Under the pieces are notes generated by a model. It ran no database searches and was not told where the DNA came from. It saw nothing but the letters and a program-made list of their open reading frames with translations. From positions 6,015,378 to 6,079,377 of the forward strand of contig NC_087381.1 in NCBI RefSeq assembly GCF_963675165.1: DNA of 64,000 nt. The letters run 5' to 3'. This stretch comes from Halichondria panicea (lineage: Eukaryota > Porifera > Demospongiae > Suberitida > Halichondriidae). The position numbers and the translations under genes were made by a program. Every line of letters begins with the position of its first letter. Positions within the stretch are counted from its first letter, which is position 1. Shown piece after piece: positions 32,672-61,182 of the stretch.

Positions 32672-35600
32672 ATGACGGCCGACATGGCTACTACTGCTGG
32701 AGCTGGAGAGGATATAGCCTTGATCCCAGGCCTTTTGAAGGAGGCTGGAGAAGCAATGCCACTAGATGGTGAGTGTGGGGGCAAACTTATACTATAATTG
32801 ACTATTGCTACAATACTTTAGATATCTAGACTACTCTAAGAATAGTAATTCTAGGAACAGCCCTGTTGGGGCGCGTTTTACACCGCCAGAGCGCATTGCA
32901 TGGTAATTCGAACAATCCATTCATCCAGCACCCCCCTCTCTCAAATCCTGGCTACGCCCCTGCCAATAATTCATTTCTAGCTAGTAAGCTCTGTGTAGCT
33001 AGTACAGCTACACTACAGTGACACAGAGAAGCTACATGATCGGTCCAGCTGCACCAAGAATGCCTCCATGTCTCACAAACCTGTGTGGGCCTGGGAGAGT
33101 ACAGGTCTATTCTCAGTTTGATAATTAGCCCACGCTCTCAACAACAACCCCGCAATAGCCACACCCATTATTAGTTTCATTTCCGGCTGTTCCTGTTTAG
33201 TGTGCGTTCCTGTTTAGTGGCCCTACAAACGTCGGTAGCTTTCTAGGGTAGGTGGGGCTCATTGCTGACTCAGCACTTAACTTTTGTCAGGCACAAACTA
33301 TTCTAGCTCAGCTTTGCAAGCTTTACTGACTCTGCAATTGTTATTTTAACTATGGTTTTTGCAGTGACGATCCGGATGGATGGTTTACGTTTGTATAAAT
33401 TCGAATGTAGCTAGTGGACAATAAGTGTTATATACCCACTTGAATGAAAAGTATACTTGCTATTGGATACAACTAGCAAACAGTCTCAAAAACTGTTGAA
33501 AACAAACAAAAAGCTTGTGCGTATAGCTTGAAGCCAGTGCTAAGCTTCTAGCTCTACGCACTAACTTGTCAATGTCCAAGCAGTGATTCATTAGCTTCCC
33601 CAATAGAAATGATGGGCAAAAAGTACTCTACACCTGCTCAAGTTCCTTTTCCTTTATCAAAATTAGTGACTGGCCATGGTAAGTATACAGTTGGTTTACA
33701 GAACGTGTGTAATTAGTTAATTCAACCCAGGTCCCATAAATTATCACTCCAGTTTGGATGATCAAGTAGATCACCTGGGCGCATCGTTTCAATGGCTAAC
33801 GAATGAAGCATATCGAAGAATGAAGATATCTGATGTTAGTGTTGACGAGATCTATTTCGCTATATCAATTATACATATGAAATGTTTCGCTAAAAATTAT
33901 GTTAACGAATGCTTTGAGAAAGCCAATACGCTCGCAAAGATTTGGGGCAAACTAAATCATTTATGGGATTTCTTCAACTATGAGCTTTTCCAACAAGTGG
34001 TTCGAGTCATGTTCACTAAAGCAGACGATCCTTTGCTGAGCGAACTAGCCAAGTACGAGAGTGAGATGGAAATATTTTGTTCTAGAACAAAGTTTTGTGA
34101 CTTTGTTAACCATTGGCCATTTTCAATTGCAAAACCGAAGCAAAAAGCGATAAAAAAACTTAAAAAAATACTCGTTACAGTGGACCAAAAATGGGAAGAT
34201 TGCACTTTACATGATGCTAAAAGAATTTTTTCAGTAAGCTTTTCGCTACCTCAGGAATTTATGGTGTTGAAAGGTGCTTGTACCGGGATCCTCCCTCCAT
34301 CTGTGGCCAGCTCAATAAAGAAACTACAAGGTAATAGTTCTGTTCTCTTCCAGCTCCATAATTGGCACATACCTGAAAAACTCCTTACCATCAGCTCTTA
34401 TTTTTGGAAGTTTCAGTTGTACGAAAATTAATACGGTGTGTATTGTGTTTTTCAATAAAGTGCCGTATTTCTTTTCTTCTCAGTTTTGACAATGGAAACA
34501 CTAGAGAAAGAAAATAAAATCACTGACGAGCAGCTGGACACAAGAGTAGAAGAAACTGATCTACCTCAATTATCCTCATATTTCGACAACACTGACGACT
34601 ATGTTGAAATGCTGGGGCTCTCACCTGGACAGCAAACTTGTGTCATTGAAGAGAAGGCTAGAACAGCCATAAATCAGACACAAGCTGGAATAAAGTTGGC
34701 TCTGAAATACTGGCTGGACAGAGTTCTTGCAGAGGGCACGTTCAGAGCTCTGCTACTTATCCTAATCTCCCTGGACAAAGGAGACATTGCTATCAAGGTG
34801 GCACAGTACTTGTCAGCCAAAGGTGAGTGATTATCTGTACTAACATAGAGCTGAAAATGTGCTAGTGTCTGATAAACGGTAAGAACAGACAAAAAATCGA
34901 TCATCAGACACAACCTACCGTTTCTTCTGTAGGGGGATATGCTGAGAGTCGCATAGTAATTATGTAAGGACAATAATTAAACAATAAAACCCCCAAAGTT
35001 GGAGTTGCAAAACGCTTGTATGTCCATGCAGCAATTATTTCTGCTGAGTCACTCGCGTATCAATGATCAGACAGAAAATGAGGTCAAAGGTCAAATGTTA
35101 TTGGCACCTCACGCAACTGGGGTCAAAGGTCATTAGTGAGCGTGTGCGTGGATGCCAATGACATTTGACCTTTGACCCCATTTGTTGTCTGATCATTGAT
35201 ACACGAGTGACTCAGCAGAAATAATTGCTGCATGGACATACAAGCGTTTTGCAACTCCAACTTTGGGGGTTTTATTGTTTAGTTATTGTCCTTACATAGT
35301 TACTAATGTAGAGAATAAAATTATTGATGCTCAGAATTAAAATCAAGATTCTGTAAGTGTATAAGTAAACGCTCATCGCAGGCTAGTACTTTTTTATGCC
35401 TCGAGGACTAGCCGCACGAGGAATACGATAAAGCTGACTGTGTGTGTGCATGTGTGCGTGCGTATTCCAGCTGTTACTGCTCAACGGTTGCAATGCGACG
35501 AAAACTAACAGCTTCTATAGGCTTCTAGCCACGTTCTCTTGGATTTTGATTCGTGGATTAGCAAACTAAAGCTTCTTTCTCGAGTTAGGCTAGTTTGACA

Positions 35601-38600
35601 CACATTGAAGGCTGTTGCAGTCTCTTCAGAATCTGTCATAGCATCATCTGTTCGCACAAACTTTCTATTCAACACATGAGTTAGCCTTGCACTAAGCTAG
35701 CTATAGTAGCCTGATCTCTTTGGACACACCCTTTAATTATTCCTATAGATGCAATGCGCATGCGCACTCATCCCCACATGTTAGAGAATTCAGTGGCAGA
35801 TCAACTTACTGGGTATACTTCTTTTCTTGAGGTCCTGGTATACCGATAAGCAAATGATACCATATAGACTAGATAACAATAGATTGGTGTACACAAGTCT
35901 GGTAACAATAGATACATGTACACAAGTGTTTTCTTCTCAGTATTAATATTTAGATAGATACACACTTTCTGCTTGTTTATATACTATACTGCATGTCTGT
36001 GCTTAAAGGGAAGGTACCATGAAAAAATAAAGTTTTATTTTTTTGCCTTAAAATGTTCTTTGTGGGGTATAAAATAGTCCTGAGACAAAAAAATATTTTT
36101 CTGAAAATTAACTTTTCAGAGAAACAGGACTGTAGGAACACAATTTCTGGCTTAAAATTTTGCTTCCTGTTGTGGTCAAATGTGGGCGCGGTCAAACGTG
36201 ACGTCAGAGTAGGCATTTGTGCTGCATGTAAAATGTATTCTGTGTGTGTTGAGTGTGTTGCAGCTGGTTGCTCCTTTACATCTAGCAGTCATACAGTTCT
36301 CTCAGTTGAAATATGAGTGGGAAAAACAAGTCCTATGTACCAGAGCTCACTGAAAAGCAACAGAATCCTGTTTTTGTGTACAGTGAAAACTCACAGATAT
36401 GACCTCCCTTGCTGCTCAGTTTGGGATCCAAAAGAGGAAGAATCTGAGGTCTGGAGCCATTCTAACTGTTTTCTATAAGGCAGTTATTCAGAAATAAACT
36501 GCCATATCGTCCTGTAAAAAGAGAGGCCCTGAGATCAGAGTCATGGAATGGAGAGATAGCCCTATAGAGAAGTGCCCGGTCAGCCGCTGTATACGGAAAA
36601 GCGAGAACGGAGACAGGTTAATAGCTTCTGTTTTTGTTCAATCATGTATAATTATAATACCTCGCTGCAGTTGATACTTGATGCTTTACAAGAGACAACC
36701 TCTCTATACCGTGACTCCTGCATGTAGACCCGGCATGCAACTGAGACTCCTGATCAGACTACATAATTATGCATGCAGTACCTCTCTTCCTATTTTCATG
36801 TTGGAAACAACTTCAGCAAGGGTCTCATTGTCATGCAAAGACAAGTGAAACCAAAACTTGACGTGTTAATAATGTAAAGATTACCGATAGTAACTCAAAC
36901 CCCATCTAAATTATAAATTATAACTATACCAAGGATGTCGATATTTAGTGTGAAGTGCTTGGACTCATGCATGGTGACTCTCCCCCTGTTGTCAAATCCC
37001 ATACAACCTAATTTTGAGCCCAGCATCTTCTTCTCCTAAACGTTTGTCGCGACATTGACAAAAACATAACTTTTAAATTGTCTCAAGAGTAATACACGTA
37101 ATACAGGTTGAGTCAATAATCCTGCATGTGAAGAAGAAGGAAATTTGTTACGAATCGCAGCTATACTGCATGCACAGCTTGGTAGAACAACTCGTATAAT
37201 TATATGTCTTCCAAGCCAGCCCCAGCACAACCGACTAGTTAAGAAAGTTATACCTTTCACACTGATAAACTTACTGGTGTATACTTCATTCTCATCTGCC
37301 TCACCATATCTGTGTTTGTGGGCAGTGTACGCCATCTGTAGCACCCACATATCAAGGATCAAATCCATCACACTGATTCTCTATTGGTATAATACATTTC
37401 TACACAACGTACTACCGCATGCATTCACACCTGCATGACACACTCAATTGCATGACTGTATACTTATACATATAGACCTAGTCTATATACTAATTAGTCA
37501 ATTAACATTTCCTATCCTGCCTTCATTGTCACCATCATCATCACCACTCGAACTAGCATGGGAAGGCTTTCTCGCTCATACAGATATGGCTCCACAGCGC
37601 TTGTTTTATCTTCACTGCAGCTTTTTTCATGCTCAACAGATGAGAAGGAGTAGGAAAAACTCAACTGGCTTGAAAATCATAGCTAAAATCACATGTGTCT
37701 GTCAGTCAGACTCATGCAGCCACCAGTATGCATCAATTCAATGTTTACTAGTACCTACTCTGACGTCACGTTTGACCGCGCCCACATTTGACCTCAACAG
37801 GAAGTAAAATTTTAAGCCTTTCTTAACAATCCTGTTCCTCACAAACTTTAATTTAGAAAAAAATTTTTTTGCATCAAGGTTATTTTATATCTCACAAAGA
37901 ACATTTTAAGGCAAAAAAATAATTCTTTATTTTTTCATGGTACCTTCCCTAAAGGTTTGCTCCCATGCAGGGCCACTGTTTGGCTACAGGCAATTTAAGA
38001 CGATCAGTATACACTATTAACTGTGGACACCCCTTTCTTGTGAAACAATCAAAGCACACTGCAAATTATTTACTTGTTCTATAACACTCTGAGCGAAAGC
38101 AAAAACATGGCGAGAGGCATTAGCAAGCGCACGTTTGCAACACTCATTACTTAGGCAATCAACATAATGTGGAGGGTGCAAACTCTCAGGGTACAAACAG
38201 GACTGCTCTTATGACATGTACATAACTCACTGCGTTTGGGATGCTATAACCTTTGGGTTTTGTATAGCAAAAACTGCCTGTAATCTAAAGAGTACAATGC
38301 CACTAATATTATTTGTGAGTAGATATGGTGGAATATTTCTAAGAAATGGTGCTGATACCATTGTGTAGGTGAATGAAACATAATTATTCAAAAATGTTTC
38401 TAAAACGTTTTAGTGGGAAATCATTTAGGTGAAAACGGGGGGGTGATTGTAAAAAAATGTATGTAACTCTGTAAGTAAAGTCTTTTCTGGATAGGTTTGT
38501 TACCAAATGTTAGATAATTTTCATGTGTAAAAAATTAGACCTTAGCCAAGAAATTTACTTCAGTTCCCTTGCTATAATTATAACCGAAAAGGCACCTTTA

Positions 38601-41600
38601 AACACAGTACGAAGCAGCGTGTGTACTTGTACGCATACATGTTAAACCAAGAGCACATTACAGAAGGAGCGTCTAACTCTGCATGGGTTCGGAAATCGCA
38701 TCTTGTGTGTTTTCCTAAACGCTGCATTGCCTTATAAGAAAAGTGTTTTACAGACCGCTGTCAGCCTGTGAATATCATTGGATTTGAACGGATTTTGTAA
38801 GTAGTGCAGCAGCAGGAGAGCTATAATTATAGGTTGAGCCAGAAAGAACTAAAATGAATAGCTAGGTCTTTGATGGATGTTGGCCGGTATACATCATGCA
38901 TGAAAGAGACTGTCATTGGTGAGATATCCAATTACTTTGTAAAGAGAAAGTTTGCTAAGCTAGCTGTAGCTTTTCATTTTTATTGACATGCTTGGTAAAG
39001 CAGAGATTGAAAGAGAAGGGGATATAAAACTAGATCACGTGAGCTTAGTATGTGCTCAATGTAAAACAGAGTAAAAAGTTTAGGCACTCTGCGTTGCTAA
39101 AAATGGCGGTTTAAATAACAAAACAGGCCCATGGGAAGCTGGATGACTCACTAATTGACTAGCCGCAGATAGTTTTAAAATATATTTGGTGGCAATAAAA
39201 TCCAGAACGCCAGATTCCCTGGTTTATTGGCTGTACTATAGCCTTTGTGGGACTGCAGAAAGCAAGTTGGTTTTCATAAGATGGTTCAGTGATGGGTTTT
39301 ACTGTTAGCTATGTATTGGTGCCTTTCTCAAAGGCTAGGTCGCTCTGATGCTGAAAGCATAATCGATTTTTAGTGTACCATTTTGCAAAATTTTGCTCCA
39401 GGACAAGTAAAAGAGGTCAAAAAAGTTAAAATGATCAAACAAGCTGTCTCTTGGCTTTTAGCTGAGGAGCTATTCCACTTCCCAACAGTCCACTCTTGCA
39501 TGTGTATATAAAAGCTATTAGTAGCTTCATGTTATGTAGCTTTGGCATCTCCACCGAGGCATCAGCACACCTGCGGTGCTTTCATTTCATTTAATCAGGA
39601 GCACATTACAGAAGGAGCGTCTTACCTCGGGAATCGCATCTCATGCAAGTTTGCAAAGCATATAATAACCTTATGCAAAACCGCGAAGTGCATGGGTGAT
39701 AATCATCTGCGGGCGAATGCTATTTGAGCTGACGATGCACTTTTACCAGAGATTGAAGAGAGAGGGATATGAAACTTGATGACGTGTACATACAATCCGT
39801 GATGCCCGAAATGGGCGTGGTACGTTGTCTGTACTGCAAGTTCTATGTAAAATCATGTAAAACACTTTGGGGACTGTATCTCTAGACTTGCTGCTACATA
39901 TAGAACAAAGTTGATATGATGACCATTATTTTAATGATCGACCATGATTGTTGTTAAAAACGATCACTGCCAAAAGTTCAAGTCTAAAATAATAATTATT
40001 AATGGCTGCAAATCAGCAGAGCCTTGCAGCTCTCTTCTCATTCTTGCAGCTACCAATAGCTATAGTGTTCTAGTGTAGAGCTAACTACTAAGTAGAGTAG
40101 CAACACTCGGTATAGTATAAGGCAAGCTACGTGCTCTTCTGAAAAGGCTGCAATTGCATTCCAACTCGGTAAGTAAAACTAAGCATAACTCGAGAACGAA
40201 CTTTATGTTATGTAGCTTTGGCATCTCCACCGAGGCATCAGCACCTGCAGAATTAAATCCAAGTAAACATGACTATAGAAGCTTATAATATAGAAACTCT
40301 TGATTCATCCTTGAACAGCTTGCAAAAATGTTCATCATGATTGATATAATGTGTGTAAAAAAGCTATTAGTAGCTTTATGTTATGTAGCTTTGGCATCTC
40401 CACCGAGGCATCAGCACCCGCAGTGCTTTCATATTAAAGCTGGAATTGTTGTATGCTACCTTTGGCCAGGGTCTATATAGGGTATGTATTGTACATAATT
40501 ATAGGCTCATGCAATACATTGCATGTGCAATCGAATTCCCCTTATATTCTTTAGCTTGCTGTCAATTATTTGAGCTTGCTTGCTGGCAGAAATTAAATGT
40601 GTTTTCTTGTGTATGTAGGAGAAGCTGTTGTGGAAGTCACTAAAAAATCTAACGAGTTCAGCAGTTTTGGAATTAAAATTACCGTCCCGGAAAATTCGCT
40701 ACCTGAAGGTATCGATACGTGTGTCCTACACATATCCTTCGAGTTATCCACTAACTTTGAGATTCCCGCTAACTCAGAACTACTCAGTTCAATTTATCGT
40801 GTGAAGTGTGAGCCCAAAATGCAGTTCAAGAAGCCTGTCACCCTGGAAATGCAACACTGCATGAGCTTAAACTCTGACCATCAACAAAGGCTTGTCTTTG
40901 CTCGAGCAACAGATCAGAGTAAAAAGTTTGAGATCCTGGAGGGTGGTCACTTTCCTATTGGTGAACGCTATGGATCCATCCAGCTTACTAGTTTCAGTTG
41001 GTTTACAACTTTGTGTGAATTATTAGGCTATCCAACTGAGAAGATGTACAGTGCATTGCTCTTCAGAAATAACTTGCCCTGTGACGTAATTGACATGAAA
41101 TGTGTGGTATGTCAGGATCTAGACACTCATGTAAAGGTAGGTTTCCACAATCATAATTTGTGAGCCTATAATGAATTATACAATAATTATAATTATGCCT
41201 ATACCATGCAGTGTTACGTAACATAATCATTACAGGTAATTAGAGAGGCTTTAGAAAGAGATGGATTCACAAAAGAAATGGATCTAGATCAAATTCAATT
41301 TGAAAATACAGTAGAGATGAAGCTACATTCAGAGAATCCCGAGCTTTGGACTGTTACTAGAGTAACATCCACTGTGAGTTATAGTAGTATCAGTGGTAGT
41401 TTTTAAAACAAAAGCATAATTATAGTTACACTCTTGGGGAGGATCATATATAATGCAACAAAACAATGGACATGCATGCAGGTGTAACTATATTATCATG
41501 AACTTTCTATCTTGTATATATAGCTGTCCAGAGATTGTATTGAGGGATACTCAAGCGTGTTGGATTCTAATAGACGGCGTGGAGTTATTCCAGCCATCCA

Positions 41601-44600
41601 TTATAGATTTAACCTAAAGGAAAAAAATATTTCTGAATCAGTAAACTTTCTGCTGACAAAAACCGATTTAGAGAGCCAACACTTGATCCTACATATTTGC
41701 TGTAAGTATATATATAATTATAATGATCTTTCCTGAATTTTACTGTCCTGATACTTGCAACAAACCATGCATCCTTAACAACTTAGTTTCCTCAGTACCC
41801 CACACTCTGGGAAATAGTGACTCAGCTACACAGAGAGGTCAGTTTGTGTGTATAATTATAGTAGATGATTAATTATGTGCAGCTATATTTTTATATTTTT
41901 ATTTTCCTCAGTATGTCAGACTGCCGGGAAGAGTGACTTAACCACACAGAGAGGTTTGTATATAATTATAAGTGCATTGTCTACAATATACGTACATAGC
42001 TATAGCTACATTAATAATATTAAGCCAAATTAAGACAGTCATATAATATAATTATATATAGGTTATGAAGTGTCAACAAGCTATGATTGCGAATCCATTG
42101 TGAAGACCTCATCATCAGGTTTGATTGCTATAACATTGTATTGTTATAGATGTGTCAACGAAATAGCCCATGCATGCACAGCTTCAGCTAGTAATCGTAG
42201 ATTCAAGTACCTATATTATTCAAAGAGGTAAACTATATAGTTATGTATATACGTTAATTATATAGTAATTAGTATTCTAAACATGTTCACGTCACTGCAT
42301 GCTCATTGCCTCTTATGTATATAGCTAGTCGAATCCCTCTCCAAGATCTAATAAAGCGATACCGCCTGACTGACAAGCAACTCAACAGTGAAATCAAGAA
42401 ATCTGATACTCCCGTTATAGCCCACTATTTCGAAAATGTGCAACTTTATTCGAGTGCAATGGAACTAACTCTTGCTGAAGAAGCTGATGTGAAAGAATTG
42501 CGTCGTGTAGATGGCAATCAAACAGCCATGATGAAGTGCTTGCAAATCTGGAAAAAGCATGCTCCTTCTCAAGCAACTTACAGAGCTCTACTGGATATTG
42601 TACTGGGATTGGGGGAAGGTAACACAGCTCATCAAATCTGTCAGCAATTTACTCGACGTAAGTACATGTACATACGTTATTTCATATCAGGTGAATCCCC
42701 TGAGAAGCTACTCAAAATTTAACGCGTGCTTGAAATTACAAAAACAAATTACCTGAATGGTGTCAGGAGCACATAAGCTAGTACATGAATAGAGATGCAT
42801 ATGGAGTGTCTTATACTATATATGCAGTGTATTGCGGAAACAATAATCGTCCTAACTGTAATAATTTCCTTGTTTGTAATGTGCTAAGGCACTTGATCCG
42901 AATAATTATAATTAAGTATAGCAGAACTCAGCGGTTTGACATTATTATATATGGCAATGTTTTTACATAGCAAGATGATATAATTTCCGGGTATAGTAAC
43001 ACACTGCATCTCCTCATGTGCTCCTAATGATGTATGGTAGAAACTGGATTATTAGCATGCAGGCTGCATACAGTGTATCTTATATATAACTAGAGCACTG
43101 AAGTGCAAACCCTCAGCTGGTGACATGATACTAAAGAAAACGGAGGAATGGTATAATTATAATGCAGTGCATGTAGCATGCCTATATATGACTAGCACAG
43201 CACCTCAAACTAAACTAACAACGTACAACTACATGAGACATGCACTGTGAACTGGGATCACAGCAAAGAAGCCTGGAGTCTTAGACTAAGAGAAGTATGG
43301 CTCCTGCTAAGCTGGAGTATAGGATCCAGAGTCAGTCAACAACCATGCAGTCACAATTCTACTTTCTTGACCGTAGGCCTATTCAATTGTTCCTGGTACG
43401 GGATCACTTCAGTTGAAAATAGGTAATGAAGCCTATACGTAGTCAAGGCTTCATTACCTATTTGCAACTGAAGTGATCCCGTACCTTGACTCAAGGCCAT
43501 GTGCAAGTTTAGCTTTTGCTCGATTTTATTCGACAAAGGAGCTTTAACATCAAAGTCTGCCACAATTTAAAACAAGATACTGTTGTGTGAAGGCTATCCA
43601 TGCATGCTGTAAACGCAGTGCTGTGGCATCCAGGTGAGTAGAAAATCCCATCACAAACAAACAAACAAACAAACAAACAAACTAACAGACTACTATACCC
43701 GTGGCCGCCCACGCGCGCCTCGGGTAATTATGCCTCGGTGCACATGCATGCGCAAGCGAAGTATATTACAGTAGTACAGTGTGTTCGTGTGTGTGTCTGT
43801 GTAGACTGCATGCATGCATGCTACATCTGCTCAAGGTTCATTGAAGTACAACTAAGAGTTTCTATAGGCTTCTAAAGTCTATTTGCATTGAGTTCGACCC
43901 CGGAAGTTATGTGGTCAATTATGGCTTCATTTATGCTTTATGTGGTGGACAAGTATGCCTGGGACTTCTACATGGAAAATGCTAACTTTTAGCTGGTTGG
44001 AGCTTATCAGCTCTACAGCATATAGATAGAAGCGCTTTTTAACAAGGAATATGAAACTTTGAATTTCAGTAAAGTATGACAAAGTTATAACAACTTATGA
44101 AGGTCAAACTCAACACAAATAGACTTTAGTCATGTTTTCTTAGATTTAATTCGTGGATTTGCAAAATAATGCTTGGTTCTCGAATGAATACATTAATGTT
44201 CATTATAATAATAATTATGATGTGTGTATAAAAGCTACCGTATAGCAGGTAATTTTAGGGGGACAAAATATTCGTGGTTCAGCAATATTGAGACACTTCG
44301 TAGGTCATATTTTCGTGGTTGGAGCTTGCACTGCAGGTAAAGGTAGGCAAGGTCGTTTCATTCGTGGGTAAAACATTCGTGGTCAGACCTCCAACCACGA
44401 AAACCACGAATATTTTGCCCCACGAAAATTACACGCTATACGGTATTAGTAAAACCAGTAGGTTTTACATAGGATTGGCAGTGGGTTTGCCCGTTATTTT
44501 GACTCATGTTCAAATTGTTCTATCTCTGCAGGGAAAGGCCACATCAAGGAGCTGGCTAGACAGATAGTTTATTTAGCCTTTTCTCTCTTTGTATCTCTCA

Positions 44601-47600
44601 TTTCATAATCCATGAACATTTTAATGAATGAATATTGTCATTTTAAAAATTGCACTATTTCGACGTTTCACTGCTCTTTGTCTGACTGACTAAGTAAGTA
44701 AGTAAGTTTCTTGCCCAGCATTTGTTCCAAGTACAGCCATCTCCAGGACATTCTGCACAGGGTTTCCAAACGACTACAACCTGGATTACAAAGCGCTTCT
44801 TCAGATTTGCGATTGCTTCCACGAGGCAGATGACCTCTCAGTCTCTATTTCTCTTACCTAGACAATTCCGCCATCTTTAATGACTCAGCAATTGCGTTGT
44901 GGCCAAATAATAGATAGGCGTGGCTAAGAAACCGCGCCTAAAATCAGAGTCTGCTTTTCTTCACACTGTTCAGCTCTAGCTCCCTTTCTCTGACAGGCAT
45001 GCTATATGCACTGGCTAGATATCATGCTCTTAAAATGGCTGTCATTTAATACTGATTCACAAATTCAACATATCAAGCAATGATTACTCATTACTATTGA
45101 ATTATTAGTCCCGAGAAGATATCTGATTAGTCCTGTCTTCTCTTCTTGAACTTCTGTACTGCCTCTTGACGTTCCACTTATGCATGTCATGATACGTAAA
45201 CTGTACTGAAAAAGAAAGGGAATCCGACTAGAAAAACATTTGCAATGTGAAAAATTACTAGGATTGGCCAGGGGAACCACAAAAAAGCATGGACACAAGA
45301 AATCAGACGAGAGCATAACTCCAATCCGTTACAACGTCATGAACATGTACAATACATAGTATATAGACTGCATGCATGTGTTCCAGATCCATCTACCAGC
45401 TTCCATCCACCACATCATTCCATGCAGGTCACCAGTACGGTCCGTGCATGTTAGACTTAGACTCGCCAGCCAGCCCTTCCCATGTTGGACTGTGTGTACC
45501 TGTGCTAAACACTGCATGTATTAGGAACATCAAATCATCATGATTATATGCCTGCACATTCCAAAATGTAAATATATATAGGGATTGGTCATCACTCCAC
45601 CAGTAAAAATTGCGTGGTATATAATTATATTGGCCGGGAAAACTATCAGTACATGCATGTGATTGACGTTGTAACGGATTGGAGTTAATGCTCTCGTCTG
45701 ATTTCTTGTTTCCATGCTTTTTTGTGGTTCCCCTGGCCAATCCTAGCAATTTTTCACATTGCAAATGTTTTTCTAGTCGGATTATAATAAGTGCTGACAT
45801 CAGCGTTTTACATTCAAATTGCACAGGAAGCGACTCATCACCAAGTGCATGAGCAGATATTTTTCCATATCGCACACCCGGAAGTATTATTGATTGGAAT
45901 AAAACGTTTTTCAGTGAGAGAACAAGAAAAACAATAATTTACACACATGCACTCATGATCATGCCTTCTGCAAGCTCTTCTGGTGTTCTAGAGTTTTATT
46001 TCTTCGTCTTTTAGCCGTTTTTTTTAGTTTTCAACTGGGAGAATTAATTTTGTTGCTACGCATCCTTCTGGTTGACAAAGCAACCACATGTCGCGCATGC
46101 GCAGATTCAACCTGCATTTGGTTTCTAAGCATTATCCCATGCATACTCGTTTGTGCGTAGTAACTGTCACTCGTGCCTGCTCTCCAGTATCCATAATATA
46201 GGATAATATCATATTAGTATAGCTTTATGTTATGTTGCTTTGGTACCTCCACCGAGATATAAATTGACACCACCGAGGCATCAGCACCTGTGGTACTTGT
46301 ATTGTTGTGTTTTTAGCAAGGGCGTATGAAGAAAAGAAGACATGCAACTACAATCTATCGTATTAGAAATGGGCGGGGGGTTTATGTCTAAAAATAATAA
46401 AGAATTTATTGCACGTGCACTTTATATAATTATACTCTAGACTAGCCTTGTTTTTACTCTATTCCCTAGTGGGCGGTTGGGCTAAATATAGCATATCCTG
46501 CTGACTCATCAATAATACGACGCGCACAGTATACATTGTGAGTTGCATGCCCTCTTCTCTTCATACGCCCTTGTTATTAGGTATTGTTGTACGAATGTGC
46601 TGAGCGTTTTGTGTCAGTGTTGGTATCCATGGGACCATGCATGTCTATTGCCAATTCCTTTGAGATTGCACCAGATGAGCCATTTGTATATATAGCAGCT
46701 ACATTGTATTCATTATACAGTGAAACTCTCCTCCTCTGACAAGCCGTACCACAAAACGCTGTTTGAAGTTGCATATAGGCAAGGAAAGAACAAGTGGTAT
46801 AACATTGGCATCAGTCTGAATGTGTCTGTGTTTGATTTGGAATCCATTCGGAAAAACAATCCATCGGACGTTGGAGATTGTTTCCGTGCAATGTTGCTGA
46901 AGTGGTTTGAAAGCAGTCCTGACTGCTACCTTTACGATTTCCTGAAAGCTCTCAGATCAGAGCCTGTGGAACTTGAAAACCTCTGTCCAAAAGTCGAGGA
47001 AGCCATCTTAAATATTGCAAAATTAGGTAACTATAAACTGGTTATAGAGACAGTATTGACGTGACATCATTAATTTTGTTGGAGCATAACAACTTTTTAT
47101 TGAAGACAGAACTCTCCCATTCAATGCCTCATTAAGAAAATTCTAAGGCTATTGCGATTCTAACATAGACAGGCGTATAGACATTACGTCTATGCATGTT
47201 AGAATCGCAATAGCCTTATATATAGTAATTTGCTTGAGTATAGCGAGCCTCTCTATAACCTAACAGGTGTACATACCTCACGCATGCAGGGTCACCATTA
47301 TTTTGTGTGAGGCAAGTAATGTTACTAAACCACCTAGGGATGAAGTTAGATGTATAACGACCACTTTTAGTGTAATACCCAGCTAGCTATGCAGTTTTAA
47401 GGGTTCTGTTGTCAATGGCATCATTGTGCATTGTGGGGCAGAGATAAGATGATTAACTGCTCCAATGAATGTAAACACAGCAATAATTTGGTGTAAACTG
47501 TAGGGTAAATAAGACATTAAAACTATTCAATATACGTAACACTTCTTGTATATAGGCACAGCTTCTGAAGTGGGAGGAGTTGGTCTACAAGAGCTGATGG

Positions 47601-50166: not shown

Positions 50167-50274
50167 TATAGTCTCGCGATATATACCAGCCAGCGTCTGG
50201 TATCACTGGGCTGGTATATAGGGTTCTCTCCCTCCCATGCTACTAATGAGAACGGGCTGGTATTACAAGACTAT
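50167..50274. mobile_element. 108-bp element with 8-bp target duplication
   Basis: It starts TATAGTCTCG and ends AAGACTAT, with inner inverted GATATATACCAGCC / GGCTGGTAT segments. GACAGGGC flanks both sides (50159-50166 and 50275-50282) as a perfect 8-bp duplication. Confidence 0.7.
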
Positions 50275-51465: not shown

Positions 51466-52370
51466 GGTTATTGTCCTTACAATAATTACTATGTGACTCT
51501 CAGCATATCCCCCTACAGAAGAAACTGTAGGTTGTGTCTGATGATCGATTTTTTTTGTCTGTTCTTACCATTTATCAGACACTAGAGTAAGGCATCTATA
51601 TTCAGACACAATGCATGTTCAGACTAGCCTCGATTCAAGGCCGCTGTAAAGCGGACTTGAGTCGAGGCTAGTTCAGACACTCATTCTGAGGAAACAAGCA
51701 GTGATAAAAAATTTTCTTTTGCACCATCTGATCAAGCATGTATTACTATGAATGTATGCAAAAAAGAATTGATAAATATCAACTACTAAGTCTTCAAGAG
51801 CTGAAAATGTGCTAGTGTCTGATAAACGGTAAGAACAGACAAAAAAATCGATCATCAGACACAACCTACCGTTTCTTCTGTAGGGGGATATGCTGAGAGT
51901 CACATAGTAATTATGTAAGGACAATAACTAAACAATAAAACCCCCAAAGTTGGAGTTGCAAAACGCTTGTATGTCCATGCAGCAATTATTTCTGCTGAGT
52001 CACTCGCATATCAATAATCAGACAGCAAATGGGGTCAAAGATCAAATGTCACTGGCATCCCACGCAAATTGGGTCAAAGGTCAAATGTTTTAGTGGGTGT
52101 GTACGTGGATGCCAGTGACATTTGACCTTTGCATGTCTGAACATGCATTGTGTCTGAATATAGATGCCTTACTCTACATGTAGCACATTTTCAGCTCTTG
52201 AAGACTTAGTAGTTAATATTTATCAATTCTTTTTTTGTATACATTCATAGTAACACATGCTTGATCAGATGGTGCAAAAGAAAATTTTTTATCGCTGCTT
52301 GTTTCCTTAGAATGAGTGTCTGAACATGCATTGTGTCTGAATATAGATGCCTTACTCTACTTGTCATACA
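51466..52370. repeat. Nested inverted repeats related to 34.84-35.3 kb
   Basis: The block at about 51480-51600 returns inverted at about 51800-51940. A second block at about 51570-51800, with TTCTGAGGAAACAAGCAGTG, returns inverted at about 52140-52365. A part reading CCCCCAAAGTTGGAGTTGC is direct to 34.99 kb. A 46-bp TAGCC miniature is inserted at 51625-51670. Confidence 0.7.
51625..51670. mobile_element. 46-bp miniature of the TAGCC family
   Basis: The ends TAGCCTCGATTCAAGG and CTTGAGTCGAGGCTA are separated by a GC-rich stem. The perfect 8-bp duplication GTTCAGAC lies at 51617-51624 and 51671-51678. Confidence 0.72.
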
Positions 52371-52736
52371 GGATGATACACCAATATATTTATCATGTAT
52401 GTGCTTCAAACTTTATCATGGCATGTATAGTTTCACAAAAATCATTATAAGATCATGAATATTCATGAGCAAACTGTTTACCCAATCTTAAAGAGTATTC
52501 ATGGATTGCTAATGAATACTTTCACCACAGACATTCCATACACACCCTCTATTGTGTGTTTGAAAGGCTAATTATACCATGTTGTTGTCTCTCTGACAGT
52601 ATACAGGTAAAACTAGGCTCTATGTGATGTAGCCATGTATAGCTAGATAGATTAGAATTGTAGAATTGATTTGTGCATAAATGTATATCAGTATTGTGTA
52701 TTAATTTTAGCCCTGCCTTAGTATAGGTGTGTACAG

Positions 52737-55700
52737 GATCTTCATCAGAGGAGCAACTAAGCATAAACCAAGAAGTAATCACAAGACTGCATATGTTGTG
52801 GCTAAAGAGGAAATGTCGAGTGACCAAAAGAAAACTGATGAACTTCCTGGAACTTCAGTGCACAAGACTGATGAGGTATGTTCAGTAAAATATTTCCCAG
52901 GACTGACAATTAAAAACCATATTTTGCCAGAACGCACATTATTTACTTGATTAAACGCCCGGGCGTTTATTTCATATCGAAGTCTGTAAAGGCATAGGTG
53001 CCAACTGTCCCGGATTTGGAGGCTCTGTCCTGTGTCCCATCCAGAAATTGCTATTTACGTGAAATGTCCCGGATTTTCAAGGCTGCTCCTGAACTGAGAT
53101 AAATAAAATAATAATACAGTCCAAAGAAGCTCAAAATACTAAAGCTATATGGCTTGAAAGCTTAAATCATGAGCAGAATTTAGTTTCTTGCACTATATAC
53201 TCTCCGTCTATCGCTACGATCAAAAAAGGGGTGGGGCTGCTACACTGTTTACAGTTTTTGTTGGTGGGCTCTCCAGTATGATCATACTGAGCATGCGCAG
53301 AGAGCAACTAAATCTCCTCAAGTGTCTCCTAATTTTTTGTCCCGGAAATTTTTCTTTGGAGGTTGGTACCTATTTAAACAAAATGGGAACTTATTCGAAA
53401 TGGGTGTTTATTGTTATGTCTACTCCAAACTCTTGCACAGCAGCAGTTATTATGCTCATTTTGGCTGCTGCCACAGCTCTCAGCTTAAATCCTAAGTCAT
53501 AGGAGTGGTGTTTTTCTACCTCTGTGTTGGTATACTCTGCCATCATAAAAAGATATACTGCCATGCTTGCAAGTGGTTCCACGTGCTAATTCAGCTCCAC
53601 CCACAGTGCCACACCCATACATGGGCGATTATTTAAGATGGGCGTTTATTAACCAAGACAGAGCTTTTATATCATGGGCGTTTAATCAAGTAAATACGTA
53701 CAAGAGGAAATGGATTAAAATGAGGTCACGTGAACTCAATTAACACGATGCAGACTGTGGGTTGGTATAGTCTTTGCATCCTCCAACTATATAGTTGGGG
53801 GTGGGCCTCAATCTTTGCAATCTTTAACAGTTGGGTCCAGCACTACTTCGAGTTTTGGTGGGCAGGGCTCATCTCTGAAGAGTCTCAAATTCGGAAGTCT
53901 GAGTATAAAAAGAGCTGCCATGGGTGCGACCTTTGACCCCGAAATTTTCATTCAAGCCTTAGTAACAAGCTCTTTTTTCTCTTGCGCAAATAAAGCGCTC
54001 AGAACCCATTCATTATATACACACTGTGAACTCTCCAAAATAAATTATACACAAAGGGAAGGGATTTAATACATTCTTGGTAGTTTAATTTTCATTTTTA
54101 CCAGAAGCTGAAACAAAAAGACAAAAAATATATTATTATGGCTGACAATAAATAAGGCTTTATGTATAGATACAGCAAAAGGCTATGCACAATAAAGGAA
54201 TCTTTTCAGCTCCAGATCAGCTACAGTGAACATACTCCAGGGAACGTTGTGGAAGAGTTAGGAAGCTTGCTTTCGACAGCATTGAAATTGTGCCATTGTG
54301 GAAATCCACCGAAAGTCCGATTCTGAAAAAGGTAAATCAGTACATCAAAATCTTTATTACCATTTTAATAGGGCAAGTGGGGTGCATGGCACCAGACAGT
54401 GAGCATAATTATAGTTCTCAGCATATGCTTACTTCTCTTCTCCAACCAGGCGGCATAGAATATCACACTATTCAAAATAAAGTGGTAGCCTGCTAACACT
54501 GGTCAAAACACAAGCTTCGCCCATGCAGGAGACTTTAGGTAAAACACTCTAGAGGAGGGTGACGCATTATAATAGCTGGAGCAAGCAGCTTTCAGAAAGT
54601 GTACTCATGATAAATATTACTGTCACAAGCCCCATTTCCTGTTTAATCTAAGGTAAAAATGTTATACTTGCCTGCATGCATGCATGGTAGTAGACTAGCC
54701 TCGATCCCAGGCCGAGTTTTCACTTTTATAACGGTTAGGCGAACAACTAGCCTGGTACTAGTTGTCTGCGCATGCGTCAAATTTTCATTGTATTTGTGGT
54801 CGGCAAAAATATTTCAATAACCGAAATTTGTACACAGAAAATGCAGAGAGTGAGTACACAAAAGATGCACATAGGGAGCTGCTTCACAAAGGCCTGGGTA
54901 GTTGCCAGTTGTGCTGCAGCACGATTACAGTGGCCCAGGGCAACTTCAGGATGATTGAATGCCTTCAAATTACGTTTCAAAAAGATTTAGCAGGCTGCTG
55001 GACTTCTCTGATTCTAAGCCCCAACTCGTAACTCAGTTAAATTTTGCTTGAGAAAACGTAGATTCTCTTGATGTTGATGTCTCTGAGCTACCCAGCAAGG
55101 CTTGAATGAGCAGGTCATACTCCAGTCCTGTGAGTATAGGACAATATTAAAAGAAACCAAAGACGGTTAAACCCTTACCTCAAACTGTCCAGTCTGTCCG
55201 TTAGTATAGCCAAGAGGAGCACTGTTGATGCCTCTGAGCTGCAACACTCGAACGAGCAGGTCATACTCCAGTCCTGTGAGTATAGGACAATATTAAAAGA
55301 AACCAAAGACGGTTAAACCCTTACCTCAAACTGTCCAGTCTCGTCCGTTAGTATAGCCAAGAGGAGCATTGTTGGGTTAGCTGGATATTAGCCATTGCTC
55401 CTGTACAGAGAAGTAGACATTCTAAATACGTGTAGATCTATATATATATTAAATTTCTTGTATTAAACAGGTTATAGTGTCATTGTCGACGAGCTAGTGA
55501 TGGCAGCACCAAGTTCTCTAGCTCACACTCTTCACTTGATCCACCATATTAACTATAGTCTACCTAGATCTTGCCAAACATGAACAAGACTTGATAGCAT
55601 AGGGCCCACACAAAAAGATCTGACCTTAACAAGCTTGACAAAGCTTTATATCTCTTCCCTTGTGTTCAGAATAATGTTTTCTAAGCTTCAGAGAAGAGAG

Positions 55701-58700
55701 AAGCTTCAGCTAAGAGCCATTCCAATCAATTCCAATAATGATAAAACGGGAACTGACTTCTAGTACACGATAGTACACGAATATAAATGTCACGAAAGTG
55801 AACGAGAATATTCATTCGTCAGAATCTGACGAACGACTGATGCATGCGCAGACAACTAGTACCAGGCCTAGTTGTTCGCCTAACCGTTATAAAGCGAAAA
55901 CTCGACCTGGGATCGAGGCTAGGTAGTAGACTAACACTTATATACCACAGCTGGCCGTTTCAATGCTGAAAGAGAGCCTCATCTAGGCTTAGCCTATAAG
56001 TTTTAATAAAGTTTTCATAATTATCTTCAGCTAGAATATTATATTAAACACGCGTGGTTATTCCTAATTCCTGCGCGCAGTTAAACAAAGAACTATAATT
56101 ATACCAAATGTTCAAGTCAGTCTGCACAAGGTCAAAGGTAAATAAATCATGTCCTTGGCTATTGATGCAGTGAGCTGGATTTGGCCCTATAATTATATAT
56201 ATTTTGAAGAGTGTCTCAAAGGAATCACTATTAGCATATGTAGCTATATAGTGGGACCAAATCCAACTCACCTGCATCAAATGGCCATTTCATACATGCG
56301 TTAATGACATAACCTTTAACCTTGTGCTGTCTGACCTGAAAATGTGATGGCGGTTCTTTGTTTAACCACGTGTGCATGTTGTGTGTCTCTTACAGCACGC
56401 GAGCATTAAAAATATAGCCGCACGCGTTTAATTAGCCTATATATACAGCGAGCGCTTAGATATAAATGCGCGAAGTTAATTGTGGCGGTATAGGCGGAGG
56501 CAGGTGACCCTTCCTTCTCGGCCACGCTGAACTTCTTGAACATGGGTGAGAAGGAAAGGATAAAACCACTCCTCCAGGTACACATAATAACAGAATGCTC
56601 CATGTCTGACAGTGACTAACTACCAATGCATGTGCAATGATATACATGCAAGCATGCATGTGCTTGTATCATAGGCACCAACTGTCCCGAATTGGCCTGG
56701 ACTGTCCCAGATTAAGCACCCCTGTCCCTTGCATGTCCCAAACTGCTGTTTACCTCGGATTTTTAAGGTTGCTGATTGCATGTGAGCTAGGTTATCCAAT
56801 AAAGTTCAACAAGCCTTTGAACTACTTCTAGCATTTTCAAACAATGAACAGAAACACATGGAGACAGATATTTACACAAGAGAACTTGAGGTATATAAAT
56901 ATATATACATCATAATTATATAGGTGCCAGCCAAATTCAGTGACAAAACATGCATGGGGTGTTAGCCCCGAACAGCTGGCCGCCAAAGGAGGCGGCGAAT
57001 TTTAGGGAAATCACAAACTATACGACTCTGTGCAAAGAAATTATTTTTTTCCCCATGTTTTCACATGTGATATAAAAATTGTTGTGGGGATGCCCCAGTC
57101 TTCACTACCCAGCTCTCATGCGGCTTCACTAGCTCACTGCGCATGCTTATTAAAATTAATTGCCAAGCAAGTGAGCCCCGCCCACCACTTATTGGACTGA
57201 TCAAGCTATAGCTAGCTAGCTAGAGCATTCATTTTGTTTGACTGCTTTTCTCCAATGACTCTATTATCTGACATGCATGATACCGTATTACTAGAATATT
57301 TTGCGGATGAAAAACCTTTGCGAATGAGCCAAATCAGCAGAAATGTTTACCCTTTGGGATCTAACTATTGTGTTATGGTAAGGATCATGTGTATTTATAC
57401 TAGTAAATAGTTTAGGTTTTGCAGATTTTATTGTTGCGAATGGATCATGCATGCAACCATCGCAAAGTTCGCAAATGTTTGATGCTCGCAAAACATTCTA
57501 GTAATACGGTATCTAATATGCTGAACGTGTATTTTCTATTTACTTTCTCAGCACGATTTGTAGATAAATAAATCATAAAGTGTATTATAATTTTAGCCTG
57601 CCACACAATTTATTATTATTTGCATGCACAGCATCATCATCAGAGAAGGCACCCAAGCATAAACCGAGAAGTAATCACAGAACAGTCATTCTACACTCAG
57701 ATTGTTCTGACTCTAATGGATGCTCAAACAATTGATGAGAGTCTGGAGGATGCTAGCAAAGATTGGTTCAATTTGGGATTGGCTTTTGGACTGGAGCTTT
57801 CAGAGTTGAAGAATATTGAAGATGAATACCGCTATAACAAACGCCGCCTAACGGAGGTGGTAGTCAAGCGTCTTCAAGTCACTGATCCAGAACATCCGAT
57901 GACATGGTCTTACATATGTGAATGTCTGAGGAGTCCCACTGTTGAGCGTAACGATGTAGCCAATGAAATTGAAGGTAAAGTGTCTACCTCTGTATAGTCT
58001 ATTCATTTTGGACTGACATAGAATATGTCGGGAAATGTTTTCCTTAAATGTAATTTGAATGCATTAATGTACTCTCTGCATGCATGTATATATAGAATTT
58101 GCAGACGTTGTGAAGTGGGGAAGTTTCTGATATTAGTGCATGCATGGGTGCACATAATTATATGAGCCTAAACACCATGCATTATGCAATATGCTAGCGT
58201 GACTGCTCAGCAGCCAGAGATACTCCAATATTGTCATCAGCTGACAGAGTCACAGTAGGTATATACTAAATATTAGATAAAACTTCACAATGGAGCTGGC
58301 TTCTGGCAGTTTACATGGAGCTTTGTATACAGTCACCTGTTTTCTCACGCCATCGCTTTAGTGCAATGTAATAACCATGCAAACTACAATTCTGCATGAG
58401 GAGACTGGAACAGCCTCGGTATAAGTTAGCAATAACTTAAGAAAGTAATTCAAATCCAAGAGAGTATGGCTAAAAGCAGCTGTTAGTTTTATAGCATTGC
58501 AACTGTTTAGTCTCATATAGATCAGCCAGGATTTTAGAGAAAGGGGTGCTGTCGAGGGCGCGAAGCGCCCGATTTTTAGCCGCGCAGCGCCGAAATTTGG
58601 TTAACCGGAAGCCACACCTCTTATTAATGATGTCATAATTAACTTATCTGCCAAGTTGGGCGTGGCTGAACGTTTATTTGCATAGAGAAGCTGGCCACGA

Positions 58701-61182
58701 TCACAAAAGAGAACTAGTTTATAGATTTAAGCCAGAATAGCTCACAGTTTAGAGACTGAATTGTTTTCCTTGCCTATACTAGCTAGCTAACAGCCTAACT
58801 GCAGCAAGATCTGGAAGAGAAGGGGTGCTCAGCTGGATAATCAGATACATTTCTCTGTGATTTGTATACTTGACTCAGGCTGGTTGGGGGTGCTCGAGCA
58901 CCCCTAGCACCCCCCCTGGCTACGCCCCTGCCCTTCCTACTGAAGAAAAGGGGTCTGAGCACTAGGGCTGTCCCAATTATTCAAAAAAATTTGTTATTCT
59001 TATTATCAATTTTTCTTCCATTGAAAAGCCAACATGAACATAAACCATAAATACAGTATAAATTACATTGCATGCAGCCATATAAAACTAAACAACTGAC
59101 ATGTGTACTGCACTTACATTAGAATAATGACATTAATTTTTATTGACCTTTATGACCTTTTAAACCTCCGACTCTACCTATTACTCTAGCTTCACCTCAC
59201 CTTAAAATTATTCTAGAATAATTAGGACAGCCCTACAGTACTGAGCACTCTTGTCTTGAGGTCATTTCACAATGGAATGTACCTAACCTTACGCACCTGC
59301 GTATTTATTAATTGTACAAAGCGTTAAGCAGGCATCTTTCTCTCTCTGAAAAACGTGCTTCAATCTATTGTGATTTGCCTGTGGTGCTAACTCTGTGCCC
59401 AAGGACCCCTGCTTGGCTTGCTTATATACTTCGTAGCAGTGTCTATGTATGAAGCGTTTACCATGCGTGATGCATGCGTTAATGATTATCCAAATGCATT
59501 GAGCAATGTGCAGCTCTTTATTGCCTCCTATAATATAGAATAATTCAATCTAATTGAGCCGCTGGAATTCCAGCGTGTGCAACAAAACTACACCAAGAGT
59601 GCATGCTCAGACGGTCCTTCAGGTCTGGCTGAACCATGCAATTGTTATAAGCACATCACAGTCAGCTTTATCGTATTCCTCGTCATGTGGCTATAATCCC
59701 TCGAGGCATAATACTACCAACATTCGAGGACCATACAAACATTACGCCAATTTTGTTTTAAGGATAGACTATACCGGAAGTATACAATGATTCAAAATAT
59801 CTTGGAGCATAAAGTTTCGAGGTTTAGGTGTTTAGGCCAATCCGCGAAAGTTATACGCCTCGAACATTAATTAATTTGACACTATGTTATAGTTAGAACA
59901 TGGGCATAAGGTATCTATGTGTTTTAGTGTCCCAAAGCTCGAGGGTTTTAGCCCGAGGGATGAGGGACACTATAACCATAGATACCGAATGCACATGTTC
60001 TAACTGATTTAGATCCCAAAACCTATTGGCTACTAGAAATGCACTAGCTTAGCAACAGTCAACCTATATAAACAGCCAACCTAGCAACTGCATCATTATT
60101 CTTTTGAAAACTAATATCTGAAGTTGGCATCTCTCTGTGTCTCTACTATAAATGTGTGGTCTCTATTCATCAAGTCAACCCTGCTCCTCTACCTCACTTT
60201 GATGGACAAAATTATAGTCCTAGCTCCACCCACAAAACGGAAACATCCAGCTCCTCTACAAGTCCAGCACACTTCCCAAGAAACGAGCCGCTCGTACTAC
60301 TCTCACAAAGCAAAAGGAAGACATCTAAGCTATAATTTGCAGCAAACAAGCCCAGCAAACGAGCGGCTCCTATACTACTCTTGAACAAAGCGAAAGGAAC
60401 TTTAGGAAGAAACCAAAGCTAGAATCCCAGCACTTCCATACATCCAGCTCCTCCCCCATGCAGCCTTGCAGCAAAAAAGCACAGCACACTGCACAAAAAA
60501 CGAGCGTCTCCTACTACCCTCGAACAAAGCCAAAAAAAGAAACTAGAGCTTCTCTCTTTCATTCTAGCTCTGTTATTATATTACTAGACAAAGCATCTAG
60601 CTACAATAATTGTTATGTTATTACATGTGTATCTTCTTGTAAATCACAATACAATGTACAATGTTGTAGTTTGTAGCCCAGAGCAATCTATAGTACCAGT
60701 ACGTACTATAGCTCATAGTTCCCTGCTAAATACACTCAAATGGGATCTAAACAATAGCTATTATGTGGTCTAAAATATAGTGTTTATATATTCATGCCAC
60801 TATTATTAATAATTTATATTTATAGAAGTCATGATCAGAAGATCACTTGCTAATCGACTCACTCTCCAAGAACTAATAAAGCATCACAGTCTGACTGACG
60901 AGCAACTCAACAGTGAAATAAAGGACTCTGATACTCCCTACCTGGCCTCATGTTTCGATAATGTGGAACTTTATTCGAGTGAAATGGGGCTAGCTATTAC
61001 TGAACAAACTGATGTGACAGAATCGTGTCGTATATATGGCAATCAAATAGCCATGATGAAGTGCTTGAAAATCTGGATTCAACACAATCCTTCACAAGCA
61101 ACTTACAGAGCTCTACTGGATATTGCACTGCGATTGGGGAAAGGAGAAATAGCTCTTGAAATCTGTCAGCAATTGATCCAAC
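52737..61182 (+). CDS. Downstream death-domain exons: continuation of the multi-DD gene or a second gene
   Basis: Three exon candidates: 52737-52875 (charged linker ATKHKPRSNHKTAYVV...), 57632-57974 (DD5) and 60826-61182 (DD6). DD5 ends in phase 1 and DD6 starts in the matching phase. DD5 starts in phase 0, which fits either the 52.7-kb exon read from its second base or the GTGAGT donor at the end of DD4 (47898). The first alternative lacks a visible start. A single gene would then carry six DDs on the plus strand. DD6 ends at a GTAAGT donor, so the gene continues to an exon not found or beyond the window. Transcripts would decide between one gene and two. Confidence 0.5.
52942..53694 (-). 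mobile_element. pogo/Tigger-like element with transposase N-terminal remnant
   Basis: The ends TTTACTTGATTAAACGCCC and GGGCGTTTAATCAAGTAAA are inverted repeats bordered by TA. Inside, the minus strand at about 53413-53516 reads HHSYDLGFKLRAVAAAKMSI, then TAAVQEFGVD. This resembles the N-terminal helix-turn-helix of pogo/Tigger-type transposases. The catalytic part is absent, so it is a dead remnant. Confidence 0.68.
52985..53100. repeat. Dispersed GGTGCCAACTGTCCC repeat, copy 1
   Basis: The block with AACTGTCCCGGATTTGGAGG recurs at about 56673-56790 with moderate divergence, including the CTGTTTAC and TTTTTAAGG/TTTTCAAGG phrases. Confidence 0.55.
53695..54695. other. Gap, nothing recognised
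   Basis: Frames at 53730-54069 and 54290-54496 lack family resemblance and clear splice borders. No element ends are supported. Confidence 0.35.
54696..55921 (-). mobile_element. TAGCC-family DNA transposon, copy 3 (inverted)
   Basis: This 1,226-bp copy has the same ends as copies 1 and 2 and its interior in the opposite orientation. It is flanked by a 10-bp duplication, GGTAGTAGAC (54686-54695 and 55922-55931). It contains an internal tandem duplication of about 130 bp (about 55095-55210 and 55250-55350, with AGGTCATACTCCAGTCCTGT). Confidence 0.85.
55932..57282. other. Gap, repeat copy and nothing else recognised
   Basis: The second copy of the AACTGTCCC repeat is at about 56673-56790. The remaining sequence has no supported exon or element. 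Confidence 0.4.
57283..57509. mobile_element. 227-bp TA-target MITE with CCGTATTACTAG ends
   Basis: The ends CCGTATTACTAGAATATTTT and AAACATTCTAGTAATACGG are inverted repeats bordered by TA. A decayed copy lies at about 5900-6092. Confidence 0.78.
57632..57974 (+). other. Death-domain exon DD5
   Basis: After about 23 linker residues it reads MDAQTIDESLEDASKDWFNL, LGLAFGLELSELKNI, RRLTEVVVKRLQV, MTWSYICECLRSPTV and DVANEIEG, a classical DD. An internal CTACACTCAG at 57692-57701 could serve as a shorter acceptor in the same frame. Confidence 0.75.
57975..60825. other. Intron with hAT-like and hairpin elements
   Basis: A hAT-like element lacking its left tip spans about 58528-58930 and ends in GGCTACGCCCCTG. 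A long hairpin with CGAGGGTTTTAGCCCGAG lies at about 59893-60004, followed by CCTATTGG and TATATAAA-like boxes (about 60020-60072). A degenerate tandem array of three ~75-100-bp units lies at about 60255-60545. Confidence 0.5.
59893..60004. repeat. Hairpin with nested CGAGGG...CCCGAG core
   Basis: GTTAGAACATG at the left mirrors CATGTTCTAAC at the right, GGTATCTATG mirrors CATAGATACC, and AGTGTCCC mirrors GGGACACT. The centre is CGAGGGTTTTAGCCCGAGG. A similar core occurs at 62235-62256. Confidence 0.7.
60826..61182 (+). other. Death-domain exon DD6
   Basis: It reads LTLQELIKHHSLTDEQLNSE, then GNQIAMMKCLKIW, ATYRALLDIALRLGKGEIAL and ICQQLIQ. It is closely similar to DD2 at 42325-42657, including the upstream region and the GTAAGT donor. 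Confidence 0.75.

Follow-up and report, generated by a model that had tools for sequence, protein, structure and literature searches.

The sponge Halichondria panicea carries a plus-strand locus at which several death-domain (DD) exons accompany a ZU5 exon, and it raises the question of whether these exons form one gene or several. We analysed a window of 64,000 nucleotides (C5:6015378-6079377 of a 131.5-Mb assembly). A preliminary description had proposed a single transcript with a ZU5 domain and up to six DDs, and its stop-to-stop frames were found again in our ORF check. The ORF list and homology models recovered the six DD exons where it had placed them, at 34.5, 42.3, 46.7, 47.6, 57.6, and 60.8 kb, all on the plus strand. 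Thirteen exons (32657-47899, plus strand) join with AG/GT boundaries throughout, with agreeing phases and without a stop, as had been described, but the join gives 1,027 codons from the ATG at 32657 instead of 1,030; the longer figure fits a start at the ATG at 32672 and read-through to the TAG at 47926. DD5 and DD6 can indeed be appended through the phase-0 GTGAGT donor of DD4 if the DD5 acceptor is used in phase 0, and the 15 exons together are then open over 1,260 codons, again with AG/GT boundaries (Table 1). Between UPA-like exon 2 and DD2, the join contains four introns of 94, 74, 108, and 206 bases.

Table 1. Features of the window, with positions counted from its first base.
Feature	Position	Strand	Evidence or remark
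LRR_6 repeats	9286-9717	+	Pfam 33.6 bits
7tm_2 receptor, single open frame of 354 aa	12748-13809	+	Pfam 70.1 bits
DD	17614-17952	-	Pfam Death 17.0 bits
Roc-like GTPase with ankyrin repeats	19898-20575	-	Roc 24.7 bits, below cut-off 27
DD-like exon	23961-24260	-	Death 16.7 bits
Candidate first exon	32657-32768	+	open, GT donor, phase 1; in-frame ATG at 32672 taken as start in the preliminary description
Candidate exon 2	33607-33678	+	AG/GT, phase 1-1
NT domain exon, 200 aa	33731-34330	+	15 genome matches
DD1 exon, A type	34484-34822	+	homology to DD6; relatives adjoin NT or stand alone, not by ZU5
ZU5 exon with F/S motif	40619-41136	+	Pfam ZU5 35.6 bits
UPA-like exon 1	41236-41373	+	after ZU5 in 8/8 loci read
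UPA-like exon 2	41524-41701	+	10 matches, one per whole-ZU5 locus
Linker exon a	41796-41837	+	AG/GT, 1-1; DNA similarity after UPA in relatives
Linker exon b, resembles linker a	41912-41953	+	exon join
Linker exon c	42062-42118	+	exon join
DD2 exon, A type	42325-42657	+	Pfam scan, homology
DD3 exon, B type	46721-47026	+	Pfam scan, homology
DD4 exon, A type	47556-47899	+	Pfam Death 24.6 bits; phase-0 GTGAGT donor common to C8 relative
DD5 exon, B type	57632-57974	+	counterpart of DD after ZU5-UPA in relatives
DD6 exon, A type	60826-61182	+	DNA 82% identical to DD2

The domain assignments held in part when profiles were applied. The ZU5 exon lies well above the PF00791 cut-off of 21 bits, and DD4 is the sole exon above the PF00531 (Death) cut-off of 22.6 bits, whereas the other five fall below it or are silent: DD2, DD3, and DD6 score 14.6-15.6 bits, and DD1 and DD5 gave no Pfam Death match. 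DD1 and DD5 are nevertheless taken as death domains because homology links them to Pfam Death matches. DD1 matches DD6 at 1.3e-18, and the frame of L015, itself a Pfam Death match of 57.1 bits, is matched by DD5 (1e-11) and DD3 (6e-10). The joined 13-exon protein reaches 45 bits for Death over three stretches. Sequence comparison divides the six DDs into the A and B types of Table 1, of which the B type matches strong Death matches such as L015. The NT exon matched no Pfam family above cut-off; its motif and the A-type DDs presumably resemble Amphimedon proteins. The UPA-like exons were not recognised by Pfam, by a profile against PDB chains, or by hhalign against L033; their place after ZU5 fits a UPA at 10/10 whole loci, and we take them to resemble the UPA of UNC5. 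The Pfam scan of the exons found one ZU5 stretch and no LRR, Ig, TSP, ankyrin repeats, SH3, or NACHT.

An open, phase-consistent join is weak proof of one transcript, because 22 of the 30 scorable DD exons have a phase-1 acceptor in a genome with hundreds of DD exons. These phases, including 1-1 in 14 of the 30, come from splice-site scoring with a generic matrix drawn from general knowledge, under which only 1/30 exons has both sites above 5 bits. First-look candidates for DDs in the genome numbered 503 (Pfam Death), 648 (DD6), 459 (DD5), 577 (DD1), and 381 (DD3); at most 150 candidates were scored in each search, so the DD lists are lower bounds. Phase agreement thus tells little, and the single transcript of the preliminary description was not confirmed. 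A genome search found no relative of exon 1, which is therefore only a putative coding exon. That reading, in which one transcript from 32.66 to 61.2 kb or beyond encodes NT-DD1-ZU5-UPA-DD2-DD3-DD4-DD5-DD6, draws on the open 15-exon frame, on the phase-0 DD4 donor and the phase-0 acceptor used for DD5, and on the 20 plus-strand ORFs between or just after the exons, which matched no Pfam family above cut-off (one gave a weak DUF4215 match). Since the phase fit is cheap, and given the comparisons described below, we consider it improbable.

Relatives of the ZU5 exon give a clearer picture of the gene. Its genome search returned 61 matches, of which 10, the window included, are whole and close (62-100% identity). 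One copy of the same subfamily (C10:5286800-5287339, minus strand) has two internal stops, and an eleventh ZU5 consists of four pieces of a broken copy without a UPA2 match (C10:5510267-5510776, minus strand); both are probably decayed. The matches to UPA-like exon 2 coincide with a whole ZU5 at 10/10 loci. We read the bases around seven of the nine relatives (C15, C8, C6:1.33 Mb, C6:3.37 Mb, C1:0.17 Mb, C1:2.36 Mb, and C1:2.98 Mb) and found the order ZU5, UPA1, UPA2 in all eight loci, counting the window. A stretch like the first linker follows in 6/7 relatives, at C6:1.33 Mb and C8 only via the C15 copy. A same-strand DD after ZU5-UPA is likewise present in six of the seven: it is of the DD5 type at C15, C6:1.33 Mb, C1:0.17 Mb, and C1:2.36 Mb, of the DD4 type at C8, and of the A type at C6:3.37 Mb, where the DD2 counterpart is broken by a stop (TGA). 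No downstream DD was found in the bases read for the C1:2977635 relative.

The same arrangement recurs beyond these close copies. On C14, at least 12 of 21 ZU5 matches are followed within 5 kb by a DD on the same strand, compared with a mean of 0.53 and a maximum of 5 in 2,000 rotations; among the DD matches listed, one of the 21 has a DD upstream and none has one on the opposite strand. The ZU5-UPA-DD gene family is real, and its window copy probably carries several DDs; the locus likely contains a ZU5-UPA-like gene that has two or more DDs.

The preliminary description also placed tandem DDs around the ZU5. DDs do flank it in three relatives, lying 0.5-1.3 kb upstream at C6:1.33 Mb, C1:0.17 Mb, and C1:2.36 Mb, and the order at C6:1.33 Mb is A-DD, ZU5, UPA, B-DD. 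Of the two upstream DDs at C1:0.17 Mb, one scores 19.7 bits by Pfam, below cut-off, and the other has no match; single-sequence models detect one of the four upstream C1 DDs, at 15.4 bits. On the other hand, exons like DD1, DD3-DD4, and DD5/DD6 recur without ZU5. The scaffold idea based on DDs around the ZU5 is plausible, and six DDs in one protein are unproven.

Among the downstream DDs, DD5 was tested for a tie to the ZU5. Among the matches listed, a DD5-type exon lies within 7 kb downstream in 4/7 relatives, while local shuffles gave a mean of 0.11, and 0/20,000 reached four; the shuffles shifted each ZU5 within 1.5 Mb and included neither the window nor the two C10 loci. For this reason, DD5 probably belongs to the ZU5-UPA gene. 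By coordinates, both C10 loci also have a DD5, at 1.6 and 6.6 kb. It counts against this assignment that the distance from UPA2 to DD5 is 15.9 kb in the window versus 1.2-4.9 kb in four relatives.

DD5 may also be the last exon, judging from its 3' sequence. In the window, as in a copy downstream of it, a stop comes 6 codons past the domain; it comes 16 codons past it in C15, C1:0.17 Mb, and C1:2.36 Mb, and 31 past it in C6:1.33 Mb and C1:2.97 Mb. Because DD5 so soon meets a stop here and in the three relatives with 16 codons, the step from DD5 to DD6 is doubtful; the window DD5 could also use a GTAAAG donor. In the downstream copy and four relatives, the DD5 acceptor, taken in phase 0 for the window join, reads as phase 1. 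Both the stops and the acceptor phase argue against one transcript reaching DD6.

The upstream end of the 13-exon join raises a similar doubt. Of the other NT matches, the best are 81% and 80% identical, and the nearest relatives of DD1 among the matches listed (83-86% identity) are at C17, C7, C11, and C6. An NT copy lies 0.3-7.3 kb from DD1-like exons at C11:5.65 Mb, C14:5.85 Mb, C7:5.53 and 5.71 Mb, and C6:0.13 Mb, and none of these pairs has a ZU5 match nearby. The order is NT-DD1 at C11, as in the window, and DD1-NT at C14, C7, and C6. The pairing is not strict: DD1 copies at C17 and C11:6.2-6.4 Mb have no NT match, and among the matches listed no DD1 accompanies the NT copy at C4 (81%). 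The nine other loci of the ZU5 subfamily are all without an NT match nearby. Because NT and DD1 pair elsewhere without ZU5 and those nine loci lack an NT match, the 5.8-kb DD1-to-ZU5 junction is the weakest in the 13-exon model, and the same two observations speak against the single long transcript.

The locus could instead be a row of separate small genes, namely NT-DD1, ZU5-UPA-DD2, DD3-DD4, and two-DD adaptors of A-B composition made of DD6 and the next DD5 copy. DD3 followed by an A-type DD recurs without ZU5 at C5:6103053/6103908 and C3:1391750/1390850. Past the window on C5 there are two DD5 copies (6079834 and 6088243), one of DD6 (6082030, 82%), and a less similar A-type DD (6091030, 58%), and the ZU5-exon genome search found no second ZU5 match on C5. 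Moreover, DD6 and the next DD5 could be the A-DD, ZU5, UPA, B-DD unit of C6:1.33 Mb minus its ZU5. However, DD3-DD4 start at phase-1 acceptors and so would need a further upstream exon, and a DD of the DD4 type stands after ZU5-UPA at C8. We regard a complete division into separate genes as rather unlikely.

In the region C5:6079834-6104225, the plus strand carries at least two copies of DD5, one each of DD6 and DD3, and three further A-type DDs. A single ZU5 is followed over 46.5 kb by at least 12 DD exons on its own strand, and many of the window exons among them are in phase 1-1; one ZU5-UPA gene might instead have a 3' array of interchangeable, alternatively spliced DD exons. Long same-strand DD arrays without a ZU5 match inside also occur, for example at C3:7.06-8.24 Mb and on C7, and we consider this option very unlikely. 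A slightly slimmer chance is left to its extended form, a self-cleaving ZU5-UPA hub with an array of at least 12 DD cassettes (42.3 kb to C5:6104225) that is spliced to varied C-terminal DD sets; if true, one sensor would have many alternative seeding specificities.

Decay of the whole locus has also to be weighed, as one C10 ZU5 copy has two stops, another lies in pieces, and a C6 DD contains a TGA. The window exons are open in 15/15 cases, and dN/dS of the window ZU5 is below 1 against all seven relatives tested (0.41-0.75; 0.41-1.07 over all 28 pairs), so that remnants without a working product are hardly credible. On these values, the ZU5 is constrained. For the window DD5, dN/dS is 0.41-0.73 against four copies and 0.27-1.89 over all ten pairs, and for DD4 against its C8 counterpart it is 0.80. 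The DD2/DD6 group (five intact copies, ten pairs, with the broken C6:3.37 Mb copy left out) gives 0.49-1.26, which is weak as proof of constraint. The A-type DDs evolve fast, yet the copies compared keep open frames.

Several other features lie in the window. The minus-strand stretch 17614-24260 consists of Roc-type frames with DDs, and the LRR_6 repeats at 9286-9717 are possibly part of an LRR receptor. Two large minisatellites (29154-30026 and 30740-32551), with 9/27-base units and open in several frames, end about 100 bases before candidate exon 1. Positions 52668-52783 share 74% similarity across 129 bases with the 5' part of the DD5 region (57555-57679) and may represent an orphan linker exon. 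The first upstream A-DD of C6:1322001 (at 3160) was rejected as part of a ZU5 gene, because it shares 84% identity with the DD at 17.6 kb of the window, which sits among the minus-strand Roc/ankyrin frames.

The ZU5 exon itself offers a hint about function. The eight ZU5 copies share the segment GGH...LT(S/R)F(S/C), in which GGH is invariant and an invariant Phe (8/8) is followed by Ser (7/8) or Cys (1/8). The residue before the Phe is Ser in the window, as in the CARD8 motif, and Arg in the other seven. Six aligned ZU5 sequences of other subfamilies differ: L031, L032, and L039 read HFC, and in L033, L034, and L035 a Cys occupies the Phe position. A structure model of the window ZU5 built from 14 sequences (pLDDT 77, pTM 0.73; best of five, the other four at 56-62; last 35 residues unreliable) places F125-S126 between the last two strands, 117-122 and 127-133. 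A model built from eight close copies was discarded (pLDDT 35). In Foldseek, the retained model found ankyrins, adhesion-receptor GAIN domains, and UNC5b among ten matches at E < 0.001, and a weak match to NLRP1 (E 0.023).

CARD8 is cut at SF/S at the end of its ZU5, where the Phe is buried and a His is important (PMC3210808), and the position of F125-S126 in the model is of the same kind. NLRP1 is described as needing H942, 26 residues before F968 (PMC8081665). The F/S at the CARD8/PIDD cleavage position suggests, by analogy, a self-cleaving switch that would free a UPA-DD part. The cleavage chemistry is only putative here, because the invariant His stands 15 residues before the Phe and not 26, as in CARD8 (H270) and NLRP1. 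The Arg before the Phe in seven copies and the divergent motifs of the other subfamilies also count against the proposal. With the UPA, the concentration needed for CARD8 filaments fell from 15 to 0.25 uM (PMC7794386); by the same analogy, a UPA-DD half, once released, could seed assemblies of DDs.

The window gene resembles PIDD1 in its ZU5, UPA, DD order and in an F-S type self-cleavage motif (PMC3210808); PIDD1 has LRRs N-terminal to ZU5, whereas no LRR match occurs in the window exons, and the LRR at 9.3 kb is separated from them by minus-strand frames. The window gene also differs in that it likely has more than one DD, and DDs lie upstream of ZU5 in three relatives. The FIIND of NLRP1/CARD8 is similar as a ZU5-UPA with an SF/S motif ahead of a death-fold domain, and NLRP1 gave the weak Foldseek match, but the window has a DD in place of the CARD, another His spacing, and no NACHT/LRR match in its exons. 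UNC5 and ankyrin share the ZU5-UPA-DD order and are among the closest solved chains and folds; UNC5 has an Ig/TSP ectodomain, without a match in the window exons, and ankyrin has ankyrin repeats and two ZU5, in contrast to the single ZU5 stretch and lack of repeats here.

The preliminary description held that known ZU5-DD proteins carry one DD, which is incorrect, as MACC1, with SH3BP4 as its nearest homologue, combines ZU5 with two DDs (PMC11585957). In MACC1/SH3BP4, an SH3 lies between ZU5 and the DDs, with no SH3 match here, and the window DD exons come from the genome's own expanded families. Multi-DD proteins also occur in the sponge Amphimedon, where a TRADD-N set has one to three death-like domains per protein; the seen passages of that paper mention UPA-ZU5 fusions for another TRADD-N clade (PMC8195603). 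A sponge genome report records DEATH genes as well as NACHT-ZU5 genes (PMC12909245). A word search of titles and abstract openings in the open-access literature returned no sponge ZU5-UPA gene with several DDs.

Taken together, we favor, at roughly an even chance, a self-cleaving ZU5-UPA gene from a family of about 10 loci that carries one or more DDs, with NT-DD1 and DD6 likelier to be its neighbors'. The core gene would consist of the ZU5, the UPA-like exons, and the linker exons, followed by DD2, probably by DD3-DD4, and by the DD5 that is usual in the family; neighboring genes would be the likelier source of NT-DD1 and DD6, born by tandem duplication of DD exons. It would probably work as PIDD and CARD8/NLRP1 do: the ZU5 would cut itself at F/S just before the UPA part, and the two halves would remain associated up to the removal of the N-terminal one. 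The freed UPA-DD half would then cluster and seed death-domain assemblies that might recruit caspases or adaptors. The exon anatomy, the ZU5-UPA-DD order across the family, the ZU5 fold, and the F/S motif were observed here, while a single transcript, the identity of the UPA, self-cleavage, the seeding of oligomers, and a link to caspases are inferences.

The genome contains 33 caspase-family matches, one of them near DD matches on C8. This match (PF00656; C8:3215040-3222430) is flanked by same-strand DD matches and is a candidate DD-caspase effector.

If the gene is real and self-cleaving, it would represent a PIDD/NLRP1-style switch that is cut first and released later, with several DDs in the released half. 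In this genome ZU5 matches number in the dozens and DD matches in the hundreds, and if the proposal is true, the origin of PIDDosome- and inflammasome-like seeds would become testable within one genome.
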